Shown here in pieces: positions 1 to 20,051 of a stretch of 21,449 nt of DNA. How positions within the stretch are numbered: position 1 is the stretch's first letter; each line of letters opens with the position of its first letter. The stretch covers positions 1 to 21,449 of IMG/VR virus record IMGVR_UViG_3300021090_000119. One strand, written 5' to 3'. The notes beneath the pieces were generated by a model. The model searched no databases and was not told the origin of the DNA. It saw only the letters and a program-made list of their open reading frames with translations. The DNA is from a virus. Made by a program: the position numbers and the translations under genes.

Positions 1-2651
1 TAGCCATACGCGCGGGCTTCCTGCGGAGTCGAGACGATTTCGTCGACTAGATTGGTTTTGTGCTCCGTGTCGTAGCGCTGCACCGACTCGAGCAACTTTT
101 CGAATAGCGGTGCGCCCGGGCGGAGCTGTCGCGCGATCACAAGCCGCTCGCGCCCGTCTAGCACCTTATCCTCGAGATAGTGAAAACCCTCGTGGTCCGC
201 CACTGATAGCTCGTCTTTCGCGTTGAGTGCCAACGAGATCACGGACTTCAGCGTATTCGTGCGCGTGTAGCCGCCGATCGCTTCACCGGGTCCGGCTTGG
301 TAGAGGCGCACTTCGAGTTGCGGGTCCTCGCCGATCATGCCTTTCAGGTGCGCGATCAGCGCCTGTCCGTGCTCCGTCAACAAATTATCGCGCTGGTCGA
401 TAGCAGTCATGACGGCCGCGTTTGATGCGGTCGCGCGGGAGCCATCAAGATTCAGGAAAAACTCCGGGTTGAACGGGCGCCACTGCGCTGCGCCGGGGCC
501 ATATAGTTCGCCTTCTACACCGGTCATCACCGCGATCGCTTCCTGCCGGAGCGCGACGCTGATAGCCTCGGCTTCCTCGGGACTAGGCGCTCGAGCAAGT
601 CGGGCCACCAGGGTTTGTTCTGTAGCCGACTGGCGCACGGTGGACTCTTCTACGCCAAGAGGCTGCAATGCGGCGAGCACTTCCTCGACCGTCACGCCCT
701 TCCCGTCGTTCGTCGCGAGGCCAATATTCACCAAGACAGGCGCGCGTACATCGACGGCGAGCGCGGCGAGTTGAGCGGAAGCTCCCGCCTTCGAGTATAA
801 TGTCGGCGCGCTGCGCACGTCCGCAGCAACAGCCTGCGCGAACGTCTCGGCATCCTGCTTGTTCACCTTCCCGGCGAGCGCGCGGATCGCCGCGTCGTAG
901 ACGGCCTTCTCAGCGGCCTCGATCGTGGGCACCTGCGCGGCGGCTACGGCAGCACGCTTCAGTCCTTCGATGGCCGCGGGCTCGGTGCCTTGACGGAACG
1001 CAAGCCCCTGTCGATGCGTTTCGATCGACTGGGTCGCGACGCCTTCGATCACCTCGGCGCGGCGCTCGGGCGATACCTGTTTGAAGCGCTCGCGCGCCTG
1101 ACGCTCCTCCACGACCGCAACAGCGGGCTTCACCGGCGCGGCCTTCGCGGCGTTACGCAGGAGCTTTGCTTCGCGGCTCGAAACCAATGCCCCAACGGAC
1201 TGCTTCTGCCGGGCAACGGTCAGTTCGGCCGCAGTCGTGTCCTCGATAGGAGTCCGTTTAAACGCTCCCGACTCGGTGAATACCGGCTCGGTGGGCAGGG
1301 TCCGCTCCGGTGCCCGCGCGATCACCTCGGCAGACTCCTCAGAAGCGAACCGGTTGCGGATCTGCTGGGTCAAAACCCCAATTTGGGTATTCAACGCCCC
1401 AATTTGGGTATTCAGCGCCCGCGATTCATTCGCGATGGCACTCTTTACCCGGCGTTTGCCCTCGGGCAGTTTGAACTCTGCATCCAGTTCAATCCGATGA
1501 GCCGCAGCGGTCTCCTGTTGGGCCCGTAGAGCCTCTAGGGCTGCGTAGTCGGCATCCGCGGCCACAGGCGCCGCCCCACGGCGATAGTCGGGCTCAGTGG
1601 GCACACGAGGCGCCCCAGCGTCCGGCGCCACTGGGAGCGTGTCCACCACGGGAGGTACCCCAAGATCTCGGATATCAGGGAGGGCGCCTTCCGTCGACGT
1701 CAGGACCGGCAGCGGCACTTCCGCGGGCGGCGCGCTCACGATAGGCGGCTGTACACCCGTGATGGCCGGAGCCGGTTCCTGTACAGGCTGTTGCAACGTC
1801 CGCACGCCTCCAACAGCACCGCCGATCGTACCGCCCGCTACGGCGCCTATCGCCGCCGAGTTCAAGTAATCACTGATGGCCTCGGGAGTGTCCAGTGGTT
1901 GACCCGCGGCAGCCCGTTCGATCACCGCCTGCGTAGCCTCAGTCGTCGACTCGAGTGCGAGACCCGTCAGAGCGTCTCTTCCCGCACCCTTGAGAACTGC
2001 ACCCGCTCCAGCTTTACGTGGGGCACGAAGAGCAGCGTCCCCGACCAGCCCAAGCCGGCGAGCAGCCGCGTAGCCAGGTAGGATATCTAGCGCGCCGGCG
2101 GCAACACCACCGGCAACAGCGCGAAGCGCCGGATCTTCCACTTTAGATTCCACGGCCTCGGGGAAGATGCTCCCGGCTTCGATCCCGATAGAGGAAGCCG
2201 CAGCACCGCCGACCAGTCCCGCCTGTTTTACCATTTCGCGAGTAGCTTGCGCGGCGTAACGCTTCGCGACCAAGCCCGCTACACCCCGACCGAGTATGCC
2301 CCCACCCACCATCGTCAGGATCGACGGCAGGGCCGTCCCAAGGGCATACTTGGCGAAGTCGAAGGCTTCCCCAGGCGAAGAGACGTCCTCGACCCGCATC
2401 TGGTCTGGGGCTGTAGCTTGGAGAGTATCTTGTGCGGCTTGGAGGGCTTCTGCCTCAGCGACTTCCGCGCCTATCGCTCGAGCGCCGAGCGCCTGGACGC
2501 CGCGGGCCGCGGCCTTGACTCCCGCGATGCCTGTGCGCAGACCGCGCCGGAAAGGCCCGGGAGCGTTAGGGTCAGGAGCGAAGGGATCGAGACCTGCTAC
2601 CGGTTGGGAGAGGTCCAGCCCCGCGTTCGGCCCGAAAGGGTCAAGCGCCAT
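1..2651 (-). CDS. Large polyvalent virion protein with HExxH motif, partial (C-terminus beyond left edge)
   Basis: An open frame of at least 883 codons starts at the ATG at 2651, three bases after the stop of the 336-aa gene, and leaves the window without a stop. The N-terminus has two related motifs, LDPFGPN and LDPFAPDPN. Gly/Ala-rich hydrophobic segments follow at about residues 103-130, 145-163, 175-195 and 263-282. After a Pro-rich linker (about 285-340) comes a coiled-coil stretch with a 7-residue duplication near 411-430. An HEGFH motif sits at residues 820-824 (bases 180-194). An EARAYG segment about 54 residues later could give a third metal ligand. Proteins of this size and position in short-tailed phages are often ejected with the DNA. 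The hydrophobic segments suit membrane insertion and the HExxH suggests a zincin-like peptidase domain. Both roles are inferred. The Shine-Dalgarno signal is weak, so translational coupling to the gene before is likely. Confidence 0.85.
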   Translation of the reverse strand, partial: MALDPFGPNAGLDLSQPVAGLDPFAPDPNAPGPFRRGLRTGIAGVKAAARGVQALGARAIGAEVAEAEALQAAQDTLQATAPDQMRVEDVSSPGEAFDFAKYALGTALPSILTMVGGGILGRGVAGLVAKRYAAQATREMVKQAGLVGGAAASSIGIEAGSIFPEAVESKVEDPALRAVAGGVAAGALDILPGYAAARRLGLVGDAALRAPRKAGAGAVLKGAGRDALTGLALESTTEATQAVIERAAAGQPLDTPEAISDYLNSAAIGAVAGGTIGGAVGGVRTLQQPVQEPAPAITGVQPPIVSAPPAEVPLPVLTSTEGALPDIRDLGVPPVVDTLPVAPDAGAPRVPTEPDYRRGAAPVAADADYAALEALRAQQETAAAHRIELDAEFKLPEGKRRVKSAIANESRALNTQIGALNTQIGVLTQQIRNRFASEESAEVIARAPERTLPTEPVFTESGAFKRTPIEDTTAAELTVARQKQSVGALVSSREAKLLRNAAKAAPVKPAVAVVEERQARERFKQVSPERRAEVIEGVATQSIETHRQGLAFRQGTEPAAIEGLKRAAVAAAQVPTIEAAEKAVYDAAIRALAGKVNKQDAETFAQAVAADVRSAPTLYSKAGASAQLAALAVDVRAPVLVNIGLATNDGKGVTVEEVLAALQPLGVEESTVRQSATEQTLVARLARAPSPEEAEAISVALRQEAIAVMTGVEGELYGPGAAQWRPFNPEFFLNLDGSRATASNAAVMTAIDQRDNLLTEHGQALIAHLKGMIGEDPQLEVRLYQAGPGEAIGGYTRTNTLKSVISLALNAKDELSVADHEGFHYLEDKVLDGRERLVIARQLRPGAPLFEKLLESVQRYDTEHKTNLVDEIVSTPQEARAYG
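1376..1417 (-). repeat. Tandem 21-bp duplication inside the large polyvalent gene
   Basis: Two adjacent 21-bp units (1376-1396 and 1397-1417) differ at one base, tcaacg against tcagcg. On the minus strand they encode LNTQIGA followed by LNTQIGV, one heptad each. A third degenerate heptad, LTQQI, follows. The duplication therefore lengthens a predicted coiled coil by one heptad and keeps the reading frame. Confidence 0.9.
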
Positions 2652-14808: not shown

Positions 14809-15033
14809 TTATTCTCCTTGTGTGATCGGTTGTTCATCCATGAAACGCATCAGCTTTCTCAGCGCACGCGCTTCACCTTGGTACTGTAGCAGTTCATCGC
14901 CGCCGGCATCGAGCCAACTCGCGTTCACCGCATCCCGACGCATAACCACCAACTCTCGCAATGCCCGCAGGCCCTCGTCGAGCCGGTGTCTATGCACCAT
15001 CTGCTGTAGTTCCAGTTCCGCTTCCCTTGCCAT
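14809..15033 (-). CDS. Small coiled-coil protein overlapping the portal gene (74 aa)
   Basis: The ATG at 15033 lies inside the portal gene and the reading frames overlap by 44 bases. GAGGGG precedes it with a longer-than-usual spacing. The stop falls two bases before the scaffold ATG, and the scaffold ribosome site lies in its last codons. The sequence is a single charged helix (REAELELQQMVHRHRLDEGL, then LLQYQGEARALRKLMRFMDE) with no membrane segment. I do not recognise a named family. The tight fit between portal and scaffold supports a real gene, probably an assembly factor. A chance frame is less likely but possible. Confidence 0.7.
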   Translation of the reverse strand: MAREAELELQQMVHRHRLDEGLRALRELVVMRRDAVNASWLDAGGDELLQYQGEARALRKLMRFMDEQPITQGE

Positions 15034-17011
15034 TGTTGGTCAACCCCTCTAGAATAGTTTGTACCACTTCCACCGTAGCACCGGTCTTGGCGGCCTGCCC
15101 TTCCAACACCTTCTTGAACGCACTTGCCATGAGATCGTTAACCTTGGCTTCGATCTCCTCACCCTGCAACTCCACCAGTCGCTGTTGGCCCGCCTGCGCC
15201 GAAGCAATCTTCCGCTCGGCATCCGTCTGAGTTTCAAACAACTCCTCAGTCGGAATATCGTGCGCCTTCGCCTTCGCCTCTAGGAGCTTCCGCGTCTTGA
15301 TGTGCGCACGTTCCTCGTCGGTCAGTGCAGCCGAGAAGATATCGAGCTGCTGGCCTTGGACTTCTTTCGCGATCAAGCTCGTCGACCCACGCGCGATGAC
15401 GTTGAAATCCCCATCGCGGGATTCATTCGGATCATAGCGCATATTCCACTTGACGAGCGCCCCCATGACCGAGATCGTGAACGAGTCAAAGTTCCGTACC
15501 GTGTCGCGGATCGGGAGCGCCGCGGCGCCCAAGAACATGCTCGCATTCTTCGACGTGCGAAGCGCCTCCGTACCACCCCCGGAGGTGTCCCCGAGCGATG
15601 GCGGCGGCAGCCCGGACTCGCTATCAGCGAACTCGCGGAACATCCGCACCATCAGCATGAGATCACCCAAACGACTTTGCCGGGGTAGCGGGCGCACAGC
15701 GGGCACATTAGCTGCCGTACCTTCCGTCTCTTCGATCCACACTTTGTAGGAAGCCGGGTCCATGTTGTGCCCGGGGACAAGTTTCTCCTTGTTGACGATC
15801 AGATTCTCACCCCCAATACTCGCCTCGTCGAGGGCCATGCGAGCGGCCTCGGCGATCGACAGCGCGGAATCGCGCAATGTATCGCACTGCCCATTGCCGA
15901 GTAGCGACAAGTCATCGTCCTCGAATATGAATTCGTGGTGCATCCGCGCCTCATCTCCCAAGATAGCGATGCGCGCCTTTATAACGCTGTTGTCGAGCAA
16001 CCACACGTTACCATGATACGTCTTCGAGAGATCCGTCTCGGCAATCGCTGCGCCAGCCTCACGTAGCTCATGCCCGGTAACATCACCCCAATAGGCAATC
16101 ACGACATATTTCTTGCCGTCACCCTTCTTGACTGTGGTCTGGTCGCTCTTCGGTTCCTGCGAAAGTGCAGTCTCCCAATGAAGTTGCTGGTGATTTCCCG
16201 ACTTGTTATCGAGTAACCACTGGTCGATTGCCGCCTTCCGGTAGTCCGCACGCTTACCAAGATCTTCTACTTCGCGACGACTCATCACATGGCGTTCGAA
16301 TGTACCGTCCTGCTTATTCAGCGCGGTCGCACTCATATCCGGATAATAGTTCCATACCGGGAGAAACTCCAAGATGGGTTTCAGCTTCGTCACTTCCACG
16401 GCTTCGTAGAGCCCAGTATTCACGTTTCGCTGCCATGTCCGCGCCTGGTACGGAACGTGCATAGGCCCCTTGAGGAGACCGATGTTGTAGAGCACTGCGC
16501 TGCGCACGACCTTACGGACCAGTGTGATGTACTCCATCTCTTGCAGGTCATCGTCGAGTTTCAACTCCATGCGCGCAGCCTTGCCCTTCGCATATTCGCT
16601 GATCGCGGCCTCGATCTGTTCATCCGTACACTCGACTGCCCGCGGTTCGATCTGCTGTTCGGCCGCTTTCTTCATGACCAGCGCGTCGAGCACTTCCTGC
16701 AACTGCGCCTTCGAGAGGTTCGGCAGCGGGGAAGCGTTGATCCCATAGTTCTTCTCGGACTGGGGGAAAAGCATCTGCATCAGGCGAGCAATAGTGCCGA
16801 TTACTTTCCAACGCGTGACCTTCGGATATGCTCGCGAGCGATCCTTCGGGATCTTCACTTCCGGGTCGTAGATCCCACGGAATTGCCGCAGATTTTGCAA
16901 CCAGTGGTCCTCAACGGCCTTGCGGTCGTCACGAGACTGTTCCCATTTTGAGAACAACCGTTGCCCGAATTGCTTCAGTTTTTCTTCGCTCAGTACGATT
17001 TCATCAGCCAT
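14990..17011 (-). CDS. Portal protein
   Basis: This protein (673 aa) forms the ring through which DNA enters and leaves the head. The opening helix is followed by RAYPKVTRWKVIGTIARLMQ, a pattern typical of portal proteins of N4-like and related short-tailed phages. Later parts include an alternating helical stem region and a C-terminal helical and coiled-coil part rich in Glu and Lys (residues about 570-650). The gene lies three bases after the TerL stop, as expected for a TerL-portal pair. GAGG from the TerL end provides the ribosome site. The length is within the range of large podovirus portals. The last 44 bases overlap the next gene. I am confident in the portal role from gene order and overall pattern, less so in subfamily. 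Confidence 0.87.
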   Translation of the reverse strand: MADEIVLSEEKLKQFGQRLFSKWEQSRDDRKAVEDHWLQNLRQFRGIYDPEVKIPKDRSRAYPKVTRWKVIGTIARLMQMLFPQSEKNYGINASPLPNLSKAQLQEVLDALVMKKAAEQQIEPRAVECTDEQIEAAISEYAKGKAARMELKLDDDLQEMEYITLVRKVVRSAVLYNIGLLKGPMHVPYQARTWQRNVNTGLYEAVEVTKLKPILEFLPVWNYYPDMSATALNKQDGTFERHVMSRREVEDLGKRADYRKAAIDQWLLDNKSGNHQQLHWETALSQEPKSDQTTVKKGDGKKYVVIAYWGDVTGHELREAGAAIAETDLSKTYHGNVWLLDNSVIKARIAILGDEARMHHEFIFEDDDLSLLGNGQCDTLRDSALSIAEAARMALDEASIGGENLIVNKEKLVPGHNMDPASYKVWIEETEGTAANVPAVRPLPRQSRLGDLMLMVRMFREFADSESGLPPPSLGDTSGGGTEALRTSKNASMFLGAAALPIRDTVRNFDSFTISVMGALVKWNMRYDPNESRDGDFNVIARGSTSLIAKEVQGQQLDIFSAALTDEERAHIKTRKLLEAKAKAHDIPTEELFETQTDAERKIASAQAGQQRLVELQGEEIEAKVNDLMASAFKKVLEGQAAKTGATVEVVQTILEGLTNNGKGSGTGTTADGA

Positions 17012-17014
17012 TGG

Positions 17015-18502
17015 CTACCTCGGCATTGCATAAGGGTTTGATTGCTGTATTTGGGCCCGGCGGGCTTCATCCCAACTCTGCTCTTGATGCAAGTGTTCGG
17101 CCTTCCTGCGCCGGCCCTCATGAAAATACATATCTCCGTACTCATTCGCTTCTCCGATATGCGAGTGATCGTTCTTGTCGACCTCCTCAGAATGGCGCCC
17201 GTCCTTATGTTTCTTGTACATGAACCCGCCCGAGAGCGCGGCGATCGTAGCCTCGCAACCCGGATCGACCAAGTATGCAGGCTTCCCCTGCATCACGAGG
17301 AAGTGGTCGGTGCCCGCACGCCGCGCCACCGGCGAGTTACTCGATGCCATCTTGACCTTCCCAAGGTGCCGCTTGTACTCGCGGAACGTGTCGACACAGG
17401 AGGTCTCGTCGTTCTGCGCACCGGTGTCCCCCGAGGGATCGCCAGTGACAAGGATCTCATACTCGCCGTTCTTCGCCCCGCCCTTGTATTTCTTGGCGAG
17501 AAGTGGCAGGAGCCGCGTCTCGATCGCGCGTTCGAGCCCCATATCGAAGCACGCAATGTCATCCAGCGTTAGCACGCGCCCGAAGGCATCCTGTTGCTTC
17601 AACACGATCGCCGGCGTGAGTCCGAAGTCTGCTGCTACCAGTAACACCAATTCTCGGCTGGGTATGATCGACGACTTCGCGACGTGCAAGTCACGGCTGA
17701 ACTGGGGATGCACTGGCCGGCCGCCCTTCGAGCGCCCGTACTGCGCGAGCACGTTGACTCGGATGAAGTCCTCGGTCTTATCCTTGATGAGCTGCTGGTA
17801 GTAGTCCGCCGGCAAGTTCTCGAGATTCTCCGCGCGGGGGTTCAACACGTATCCCACGTCGATCTTCAGCATCGCTGGGGGCTGCTTGAAAATCGCCCAG
17901 TCGTTCGGCAGTGCCTTCTTGAAGTCGTCCGGGTCGCGTCCCTCTTGCTTCGCGTGCCAGTACGAACCCTCCTCGGGCATGTTCGAATCTCCCCACATAC
18001 CAACCCAGCTCGGGCCTCCTTCATTCATCCGCGGGTAACGCCCGATCCGTCCGTCAAGTGCCTCGACGATCTCGCGCGGGATCTCGCGGTATTCGGCTAA
18101 CAGCGCCCCGGTCAGCTCCATACCGAGGAGCTTCGTAATATCCGCTTGGTCGTCAAGCGCACAAAAAATTACCTCCGCGTCGACATCATGGGTGGGATGA
18201 TTGATGTGGTAAGTCTTGGTCGTCGACATATAGTACCCAAGAGATCCGGCAGGGAACCAGTCAAACCACGACTTCATTGTCGTCTCACGCAACTCCGGCA
18301 TGGTGTTACGCACCACCGCCCAGCGGCTCTTGCGCTTACCTGTGCCTGGTGAGACGCGTTGCATCTTCGCGCGGCGCACGATGTCGACGAGGCCCCCGAC
18401 GGTCTTCCCGGAACCGAATGGCCCGGCAATGAACCGGTGGCGCGCGTCCGACTGCATGTAGCGGGACACGGTCTCAGGGAACTTGATGTCGAGGTTTATC
18501 AC
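17015..18502 (-). CDS. terL: Terminase large subunit (GTG start)
   Basis: This is the ATPase-nuclease motor that packages and cuts DNA. From the GTG start at 18502 it is 495 aa. Walker A is GPFGSGKT at residues 27-34. A Walker B-like segment, LTGALLAEYRE, places the catalytic Glu near 137. The nuclease part shows acidic residues in VAADFG (D292) and VTGDPSGD (D355), and a C-terminal NDHSHIGEA (about 444-452) where a Glu stands where many relatives have Asp. A longer TTG start at 18532 exists. I prefer GTG because it overlaps the upstream stop as GTGA, has AGAGG upstream, and begins VINLDIKFPETV without a basic extension. It lies three bases before the portal gene. Confidence 0.93.
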   Translation of the reverse strand: MINLDIKFPETVSRYMQSDARHRFIAGPFGSGKTVGGLVDIVRRAKMQRVSPGTGKRKSRWAVVRNTMPELRETTMKSWFDWFPAGSLGYYMSTTKTYHINHPTHDVDAEVIFCALDDQADITKLLGMELTGALLAEYREIPREIVEALDGRIGRYPRMNEGGPSWVGMWGDSNMPEEGSYWHAKQEGRDPDDFKKALPNDWAIFKQPPAMLKIDVGYVLNPRAENLENLPADYYQQLIKDKTEDFIRVNVLAQYGRSKGGRPVHPQFSRDLHVAKSSIIPSRELVLLVAADFGLTPAIVLKQQDAFGRVLTLDDIACFDMGLERAIETRLLPLLAKKYKGGAKNGEYEILVTGDPSGDTGAQNDETSCVDTFREYKRHLGKVKMASSNSPVARRAGTDHFLVMQGKPAYLVDPGCEATIAALSGGFMYKKHKDGRHSEEVDKNDHSHIGEANEYGDMYFHEGRRRKAEHLHQEQSWDEARRAQIQQSNPYAMPR

Positions 18503-18753
18503 GCGGCCTCTGGCCCGAGTGGCGCGGGCCAACCTTTGAAGTGTGTGTACTGTGTGCCGTCCATACGCTCGAGGATCACTCCGCCTTCCTGGCTGTGGCC
18601 GATCGTGCGCACCAATTCAAAGCGCCCACGGGCATCCGAAGGACTGACGCCCATGTTCGAACAATCGAGCCCGGCCTTCTCAAGTCCGACCTCGAGCGCC
18701 CCTACAGCCGGACCTTCCCGATACTTCGGATGCACAAACACGCGGGCGCTCAT
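18499..18753 (-). CDS. Small conserved-looking phage protein of unknown function (84 aa)
   Basis: The ATG shares one base with the stop of the 50-aa gene (TGATG at 18751-18755). Its TGA overlaps the TerL GTG by four bases. The sequence contains VFVHPKYREGPAVGALEVGL, DARGRFELVRT and DGTQYTHFKGWP. It is compact, with aromatic residues near the end, and has no Cys pair, signal peptide or membrane segment. I do not recognise a named domain. The coupling on both sides supports a real gene. The neighbouring terminase suggests a packaging accessory, but nothing in the sequence proves it. Confidence 0.8.
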   Translation of the reverse strand: MSARVFVHPKYREGPAVGALEVGLEKAGLDCSNMGVSPSDARGRFELVRTIGHSQEGGVILERMDGTQYTHFKGWPAPLGPEAA

Positions 18754-18905
18754 CAGTAAGCCCGCTTCTTCGTAGGCACGCCGCGCGCACGCCGCTGCAC
18801 GGAGAGGGCTATCGCGACTGCCCGCTTATGCGGTTTTCCAGCGGTCATCTCCGTCCTGATGTTCGCGCCAACTGATTTCTTGCTACCGGATTTATCGAGC
18901 GGCAT
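18753..18905 (-). CDS. Small basic phage protein (50 aa)
   Basis: A 50-codon gene with TAGGAG six bases before the ATG, overlapping the stop of the metzincin-like gene. It reads MPLDKSGSKKSVGANIRTEM, then TAGKPHKRAVAIALSVQRRA and ends KKRAY. The pattern of Lys/Ser start, N-I-x-x-E-M, A-G-K-P-x-x-x-A-V-A-I-A-L-S is one I recognise from many short phage proteins of unknown function, perhaps the DUF6496-like type. It is strongly basic, so nucleic-acid contact is possible. Length is below many gene-finder limits, so it is easily missed. TGATG coupling to the next gene and the strong ribosome site support it. Confidence 0.85.
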   Translation of the reverse strand: MPLDKSGSKKSVGANIRTEMTAGKPHKRAVAIALSVQRRARGVPTKKRAY

Positions 18906-18914
18906 GGCTATCTC

Positions 18915-19271
18915 CTATTCGTGTTGTGCGCCGAGCGAGTGCAGTACCTCGTGGCCGAGGACCTGCAATGCCAACGCGTCATTGAAGCTGCGGGGCCGTT
19001 GTACTACGAGCACCTCGCCTTCTTCGGTTTTGACCCGACAGCCGAGGGCATCCTCCACTCCGCATAACTTGGCGGATTCTTCCCGGGATTCTACCCATAC
19101 CACTTCCGCATTGATCTGCGTCTTAGTAGGGACTATGTAGGTCACATAAAATTTCTTCCGCTCGAGTTGCACGGAATCTTGTGGGGGAAAAATATGCGTC
19201 CCGTATCCTCCCAAAAGGAACAATACTAGCGTAGTGCTTATTGCCAGGCGCCAAGCAAACCGTTCAGCCAT
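18915..19271 (-). CDS. Membrane-anchored metzincin-motif protein (118 aa)
   Basis: A single hydrophobic segment (about residues 7-24) serves as signal anchor. The rest would lie outside the cytoplasm. Two Cys (70 and 78) could pair there. The protein ends HEVLHSLGAQHE, which fits the full metzincin pattern HExxHxxGxxH with His107, Glu108, His111, Gly114 and His117. It stops one residue later. No Met-turn can follow, so it is not a full canonical metzincin. It may be a minimal peptidase or a metal-binding protein. The start at 19271 is chosen because GGAGG lies nine bases upstream. A GTG start at 19310 would add 13 residues without a ribosome site. It overlaps the 43-aa membrane gene by eight bases. 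Short phage proteins with a similar ending exist in my recollection, with no known role. Confidence 0.82.
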   Translation of the reverse strand: MAERFAWRLAISTTLVLFLLGGYGTHIFPPQDSVQLERKKFYVTYIVPTKTQINAEVVWVESREESAKLCGVEDALGCRVKTEEGEVLVVQRPRSFNDALALQVLGHEVLHSLGAQHE

Positions 19272-19395
19272 TGATCCAGTCCTCCAGTGAACGAAGCGCG
19301 ACGATGACACAGAACATCACCGTCGCAGCTATCAGTCCGATCGCGATCAGCCCGAACATCAGGATGTACCGCCCCCAAAATGCTACCCCGCGCAC
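19264..19395 (-). CDS. Small one-pass membrane protein (43 aa)
   Basis: From the GTG at 19395 it encodes a basic, aromatic start (RGVAFWGRY), one membrane helix (ILMFGLIAIGLIAATVMFCV and following) and a short acidic tail ending EDWING. An internal ATG at residue 13 of this reading, with GGGGGCGG upstream, would give 31 aa. It follows the 52-aa gene by four bases and overlaps the metzincin-motif gene by eight. Function is unknown. A holin-like or lysis-accessory role is possible from size and topology, but with no endolysin in view this is a guess. The start is uncertain. Confidence 0.6.
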   Translation of the reverse strand: MRGVAFWGRYILMFGLIAIGLIAATVMFCVIVALRSLEDWING

Positions 19396-19562: not shown

Positions 19563-20051
19563 TTACCCCTCTATGGTTATGGGCTCGCGCCCGGTGGTGA
19601 CAGTCTGCGGTGCTTGACCGGCAAACGTGATCGACAGGTGCAGACCCCCGCCGGCGCCGTTATCCTTCCCATCCTTCTTGGCCGGCTCGAGGTCTGCGAC
19701 CCGGGCCATCCACTGTATCAGGTCCGCCCGCACGGCGGCACTCGCCAGCTCGTCGGTCGCGATCTCGTAGCCGTGCTGGAGCAGGTCCTCGGCCATCACG
19801 CGGGCCTTCGCGCGGAACGAGAGACCCTTCTCGCGCACCTCCTCCACTACCCGCTCGAGGAGCACAGGGAACTCCTGGGTCTCGAGGAGGGCCAGGGCTT
19901 GCTCGCCAGTATACCCGTGGCGGGTGAAGATCGTGGCGGAGTCGTCGAGCTTCAGCGCCAGCTCGTAGGCAAGGCGCTCGTGCTGGGTCTTGTAGGCAGC
20001 CGGGAGCGCGGCGAGGCGCTCGGCTTGGCGGGAAGCGAGGACGTCGGTCAT
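19563..20051 (-). CDS. Putative terminase small subunit (162 aa)
   Basis: The ATG overlaps the upstream stop as ATGA. Residues about 28-110 are helical, with an early region (ELALKLDDSATIFTRHGYTG, then EQALALLETQEF) that could be a helix-turn-helix-like start. Then come GLSFRAKARVMAEDLLQHGY, VRADLIQWMARVADLEP and a Gly-rich, beta-type C-terminus (LHLSITFAG, ITIEG). This order resembles small terminase or packaging-initiation proteins of some short-tailed phages. The gene is upstream of TerL but separated by five small genes, which is less usual. A DNA-binding regulator is the main alternative. Confidence 0.7.
   Translation of the reverse strand: MTDVLASRQAERLAALPAAYKTQHERLAYELALKLDDSATIFTRHGYTGEQALALLETQEFPVLLERVVEEVREKGLSFRAKARVMAEDLLQHGYEIATDELASAAVRADLIQWMARVADLEPAKKDGKDNGAGGGLHLSITFAGQAPQTVTTGREPITIEG

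Follow-up and report, generated by a model that had tools for sequence, protein, structure and literature searches.

A family of small, predicted exported phage proteins that end in a zinc-peptidase motif and resemble mini-zincins

Mini-zincins are proteins of about 110 aa that lack a Met-turn; two of them, Acel_2062 (3e11) and TTHA0227 (2ejq), have been proposed as MEROPS family M94 (PMC3890501). Both are built from a three-stranded sheet and an HExxH helix, followed by a Gly and a third zinc ligand with very little chain beyond it. The third ligand is an Asp (HExxHxxGxxD), and a C-terminal Tyr replaces the Met. A Met-turn and a domain of well over 100 residues, which a first-pass annotation of the DNA described here had held to be necessary, are therefore dispensable for a zincin. 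Metzincins (MMPs, adamalysins, and astacins) share the motif HExxHxxGxxH and possess both a Met-turn and a C-terminal subdomain. One of them, the exported, phage-derived Mtz of Listeria, is paired with the Tim lipoprotein and sensitises Listeria to phage lysis (PMC8235301). Here we describe a phage gene whose product, P0001, is closest in kind to the mini-zincins, yet represents a new family of that kind.

The gene is carried on a virus record of 21.4 kb, the whole of which was analysed and is referred to below as the window. It occupies 18915..19271 on the minus strand, with an ATG at 19271, a stop codon ending at 18915, and a GGAGG Shine-Dalgarno sequence (19281..19285, minus strand) 9 nt upstream of the ATG. 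The first-pass annotation had located the gene correctly, but its strand has to be corrected: a plus-strand reading of 18915-19271 was rejected, as it contains internal stops. The product is 118 aa in length (MAERFAWRLAISTTLVLFLLGG...VLGHEVLHSLGAQHE, then stop). Residues 107-117 (18921..18953, minus strand) read HEVLHSLGAQH, in which every position of HExxHxxGxxH is present (H107, E108, H111, G114, and H117), and the chain ends one residue later, just as had been noticed at the outset. Among the 106 ORFs of at least 60 aa in the window, P0001 is the sole carrier of this motif. Its composition-based chance expectation is approximately 0.0009 over all window ORFs and 6e-5 when the motif must fall within 10 residues of a C-terminus. 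Elsewhere in the window, an 883-aa ORF that runs off the end (2651..1, minus strand) bears a second HExxH motif at 180-194 (...SVADHEGFHYLEDKVL), possibly part of a zincin domain; this ORF is of virion type and weakly matches a PHROG annotated as virion structural protein.

Queried alone, P0001 matched no Pfam, NCBIfam, or PHROGs family, and peptide patterns yielded no direct relatives. Its only convincing match in a named phage was a 112-aa lipoprotein of Xanthomonas phage Rb1 (XPA09438; ending in LGHEAWHCFGARHN, then stop). A scan of IMG/VR with the DNA pattern [LF]GHExxHxxGxxHx-stop returned 21 stretches, nearly all encoding small proteins with a signal or lipobox that could be aligned over their whole length. 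Because this pattern imposes the stop, it was rerun without the stop and with GA fixed. The tails of true members past the last His were then 0, 1, 3, 5, 8, or 9 aa long; those of unrelated matches (ArdC-like proteins, other metallopeptidases, and a chance ORF) ran to 58-184 residues. A longer-spaced variant, HExxHxxxGxxH, contains one additional residue and frequently takes the form HCF-x-G, an aromatic residue preceding the last His; it was first met in phage C48C1 and two Alteromonas phages. It is much commoner than the HExxHxxGxxH form, with at least 120 matches in one pattern scan, and a single profile matches both.

In all, about 114 non-redundant relatives of P0001 were collected from phage and prophage sequences and from a small number of proteobacterial chromosomes. 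Alteromonas phage PT11-V22 also has a relative, ORF25. Two of the chromosomal copies, in Limnohabitans/Burkholderiales MAGs, lie near a kup-like gene, while chromosomal lipoprotein members from one taxonomic family share a locus adjoining a tex-like gene; the family is rare there, the full profile matching 6 of 400 genomes. No Pfam, NCBIfam, or PHROGs model matched the family members tested, and the literature searched contained no description of such a phage family. On this evidence, P0001 belongs to a large unnamed family of predicted exported, mini zinc-peptidase-like proteins found in phages and some bacteria.

Pattern matches cannot show whether motif residues are kept, so motif-blind searches were also run, using a truncated phage query, a truncated alignment, and a truncated profile over genomes, in addition to the full profile, which does not require the motif. 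One truncated-profile search, over 369 genomes of the centre genome's class, returned no match, not even in the centre genome itself, and is thus uninformative. The relatives that were recovered motif-free (L101-L107 by profile; L228-L239 and L249 by truncated query) all keep HExxH and the closing His, though the last His is shifted in L231 (HEVRHCFAGKWAGHP, then stop). Homologues that vary freely at the His and Glu positions, a possibility raised by the first-pass annotation, were not what emerged. The Glu of HExxH is invariant in every motif-bearing relative, the motif-free finds included. L249 has lost both glycines while retaining H, E, H, and H, which indicates that the metal and base residues are what is held. 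Purifying selection was evident in ten close pairs (dN/dS 0.03-0.18). A tandem chromosomal pair was also observed in L245 (5406-5750 and 5011-5409, both minus strand), the second copy of which keeps the Cys pattern and reads VGRLFLLC at the motif position, probably through frameshift or decay.

The N-terminus of P0001 was predicted by AlphaFold to form a hydrophobic helix at residues 2-21 (19209..19268, minus strand; pLDDT >90) that lacks a lipobox and would serve as a signal anchor, in agreement with the first reading of the sequence. A hydrophobic N-terminus is present in 109 of 112 full-length relatives, 50 of which have a lipobox. The possible disulphide suggested earlier also gained support from the relatives. 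In the columns of Cys70 and Cys78 (19038..19064, minus strand), 88 of the 114 aligned sequences have both cysteines, 26 have neither, and none has only one. A second pair, formed by a strand Cys and a Cys right after HExxH, is missing from P0001; both are present in 100 sequences and absent from 12, with 2 discordant. Mapped on a tree, the first pair comes down to just 1 change and the second to 3-5, and every change that could be tested was concordant. With so few independent changes the pairing is suggestive rather than independent proof, and it suggests that the cysteines form disulphides in an oxidising compartment.

P0001 was modelled with AlphaFold2 from 23 sequences. Residues 46-118 (18918..19136, minus strand; pLDDT of about 97) were predicted to form a compact zincin-like domain with strands at 55-60, 77-82, and 85-91 and helices at 63-70 and 99-112. 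In this model HExxH lies within one helix and the last His just after it, rather than far apart as a contrary fold would have them. The longer-spaced variant, modelled from a separate alignment, returned the same E-H-E-E-H topology (mean pLDDT 91). The P0001 model had nothing below E 0.99 in a Foldseek search of the PDB, and a profile search of PDB sequences gave no match; its best BFVD match was an uncharacterised 113-aa phage protein (E 9.5e-5). VIA-align placed SPRTN (Z 3.7), TTHA0227 (3.4), and projannalysin (3.2) at the top, followed by anthrax lethal factor, PprI, MMP-11 (2.7, 69 residues), and adamalysin (2.7), with lugdulysin, Acel_2062, and HtpX in lower rows. MMP-11 and adamalysin aligned over 61-69 residues. 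The alignment with Acel_2062 stops at residue 105 of that protein, its third zinc ligand (PMC3890501).

For the longer-spaced variant, YbeY led (1oz9; Z 4.2, 75 residues) and MMP-11 recurred; most of the remaining rows were unrelated folds. YbeY is a zinc enzyme with three His ligands that resembles MMPs (PMC6943124). An identity with YbeY was rejected, as the match is one of fold only and the P0001 family has the Glu throughout and an N-terminal export signal. YbeY itself is a cytoplasmic endoribonuclease from which the HExxH Glu is absent. Structural scores of this size (Z of 3.7 or less for P0001 and 4.2 or less for the variant) fall in a range that, as the tool warns, may reflect just a common arrangement. 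The model is nevertheless confident and its matches are mostly zincins, so a zincin-like arrangement is supported, but homology is not. We consider it very probable that P0001 is exported and folds in a zincin-like manner.

Set beside the described systems, P0001 has the single minimal zincin domain, the three-stranded sheet (as predicted), and the lack of a Met-turn that characterize mini-zincins, and is of similar length, with almost no chain after the third ligand. It differs from them in using His117 rather than Asp as the putative third ligand and in having no Tyr or Phe after it. The P0001 family is also phage-borne and predicted to be exported, with tails of 0-9 residues, whereas mini-zincins have not been described as exported lipoproteins; Pfam scans of P0001 and its relatives found no mini-zincin family. 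P0001 is likewise not a metzincin by definition, since only 1 residue follows H117 (0-9 follow the last His in true relatives) and no Met-turn is present. It lacks the C-terminal subdomain, is about half the size of metzincins, and reached their family profiles only below threshold (Reprolysin_5, E 0.28, for P0001; Astacin, E 0.19, for one relative). With no Met-turn, Asp ligand, C-terminal aromatic residue, or matching family model, the P0001 family is a new one. Like Mtz, P0001 is phage-associated, apparently exported and tied to the envelope, and carries HExxHxxGxxH; unlike P0001, Mtz is Gram-positive, a full metzincin with a Met-turn, and paired with a TIMP-like lipoprotein.

The gene for P0001 lies between that for TerL, the terminase large subunit (17015..18532, minus strand; PHROGs phrog_2, 6.7e-15), and a 162-aa gene (19563..20051, minus strand) that, by its position, is a candidate small terminase. 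The packaging cluster proposed in the first pass is confirmed for TerL and the portal/head-tail adaptor (14990..17011, minus strand), but the 162-aa gene, conserved in contigs L008, L010, and L016 and with neither family nor BLAST match, is just a candidate for the role. Between P0001 and TerL are two small genes (18499..18905, minus strand) of 50 aa (18753-18905) and 84 aa (18499-18753), both conserved in L010. On the upstream side, P0001 is overlapped by a gene for a single-TM protein of 43 aa from a GTG (19264..19395, minus strand; 65 aa from 19461), a possible partner that has no family match and has a counterpart at L010:2437-2589. Contig L010 keeps the gene order of the window, and L008 and L016 have a P0001 relative with the same terminase region. 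The presence of P0001 in such a cluster had been considered unexpected; in phage T7, however, the Rz/Rz1 spanins sit exactly between the terminase genes (annotated order: holin, TerS, Rz/Rz1, TerL), a lysis-gene precedent for an exported gene in the TerS-TerL interval. T7 spanins are also exported and, given the candidate TerS, their genes are similarly placed, but they have no sequence similarity to P0001 and, to our knowledge, no zinc motif.

Gene context across the family is heterogeneous, and membership of a lysis cassette as a family-wide rule is unsupported. Endolysin or spanin genes occur within a few genes of the family gene in L021, L035, L054, L110, L133, L163, and L200. Other members are found with tail-fibre or receptor-binding genes, RNA ligase, recombination genes, or T4-like auxiliary genes, and some are chromosomal, with no prophage genes visible around them. 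When PHROGs near the family genes were compared with those of control genes, no clear lysis enrichment appeared among the best 25 families listed; among these, the neighbours were late or structural and the control genes early.

Several local arrangements were observed in addition. A single-TM protein with a Pro/Asn-rich tail is encoded by a small gene adjoining the family gene at L021:8875-9700 (plus strand) and L025:2140-2355 (minus strand); an Rz/Rz1 pair follows this small gene in L021. A deltaproteobacterial prophage-like region (L247 / L054:4180-4905, minus strand) has the gene for an exported trypsin-like protein just before the family gene and a GH108-like endolysin gene after it. Many freshwater T4-like contigs (L119, L122, L130, L138, L149, and others) have the longer-spaced variant followed by a conserved gene (YDLRSSKELCDKVK...YAQNLYAAMCNM), often with an IF-1-like gene as well, forming a stable auxiliary cassette.

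Our main reading, to which we assign a probability of about 60%, is that P0001 is an exported, membrane-tethered mini-zincin that acts as a periplasmic zinc peptidase on the host envelope late in infection. The N-terminal helix would anchor the protein in the inner membrane with its C-terminal domain in the periplasm; many relatives would instead be lipoproteins or have a cleavable signal. The domain of approximately 70 residues (strand-helix-strand-strand-helix), stapled by the putative disulphide, would display the active-site helix with HExxH, and the chain would stop as soon as H117 has supplied the third zinc ligand. The zincin analogy assigns Zn2+ binding to H107, H111, and H117, and to E108 the activation of a water molecule that would hydrolyse a peptide bond in either an envelope protein or a cell-wall-linked peptide. 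P0001 would be made late and help to open or remodel the envelope for release. Late expression and envelope opening are the best guess because T7 uses this slot in the packaging operon for its spanins, and Mtz makes a phage-derived exported zinc protease plausible, even though Mtz has a Met-turn (PMC8235301). Any such late role at the envelope or in lysis is the leading functional guess, but a weak and tentative one.

Of the three options offered by the first-pass annotation (a minimal envelope-active peptidase, a lysis accessory, or a metal-binding protein), the first is the best supported, given a conserved family with export signals, an H/E/H/H set that is invariant, general-base Glu included, and a predicted fold resembling that of mini-zincins; that P0001 is a peptidase is, on these grounds, the better bet. 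Its catalysis is nonetheless uncertain, since it has neither a Met-turn nor a substrate-binding C-terminal subdomain. In this chain the lower half of a peptidase cleft is missing, as would suit an exported protein that binds zinc without catalysis, whether a structural or a metal-sequestering lipoprotein, with the site serving stability. The HExxH Glu is dispensable for zinc binding, however, and its invariance in all motif-bearing relatives makes this alternative rather unlikely. In a variant of the same idea, P0001 would bind an outer-membrane protein, in the manner of Cor and other small phage lipoproteins that are exported and exclude superinfection. Matches to the Cor PHROG occurred in three members, the best at just E 0.02 and probably owed to the signal peptide, and some members adjoin tail-fibre or receptor-binding genes.

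The lysis accessory is unproven because family neighbours vary. P0001 could be spanin-like or part of a lysis complex, a periplasmic linker working with the overlapping small TM gene (compare 18.5/18.7 of T7) in the T7 Rz/Rz1 slot, the motif being secondary. Position next to the candidate TerS and the lysis genes near the family gene in L021, L035, and L054 are in keeping with this, but P0001 matches neither an Rz nor an Rz1 PHROG (of 23 members compared, a single one did so, weakly, at E 0.018), L021 bears a family gene besides its own Rz/Rz1 pair, and many family genes lie at a distance from any lysis gene, some of them in chromosomes; we consider it improbable. That P0001 is what remains of a longer metzincin after decay, or that its motif arose by chance, would explain why the chain stops at the motif with no Met-turn, but scarcely why no true relative extends more than 9 residues past the last His, why dN/dS is well below 1, or why the predicted fold is compact and confident, and the chance expectation given above is minute; this explanation is very hard to credit.

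The preferred reading, P0001 as an envelope-directed zinc peptidase, can be carried further, although only speculatively: the family may be a large undescribed group of zinc peptidases that phages make and export late in infection, either to cleave a protein of the envelope during lysis or to keep competing phages out. With chains that stop at the third zinc ligand, they would rank among the smallest His-ligated zincins in nature. Members of this unannotated family, which is common in aquatic phage contigs, seem to have all the parts of a zinc-peptidase active site within a predicted periplasmic domain of some 70 residues. Should they prove catalytic, they would illustrate how small a His-ligated zincin can be, and a protease would join holins, endolysins, and spanins among the means by which phages act on the envelope.
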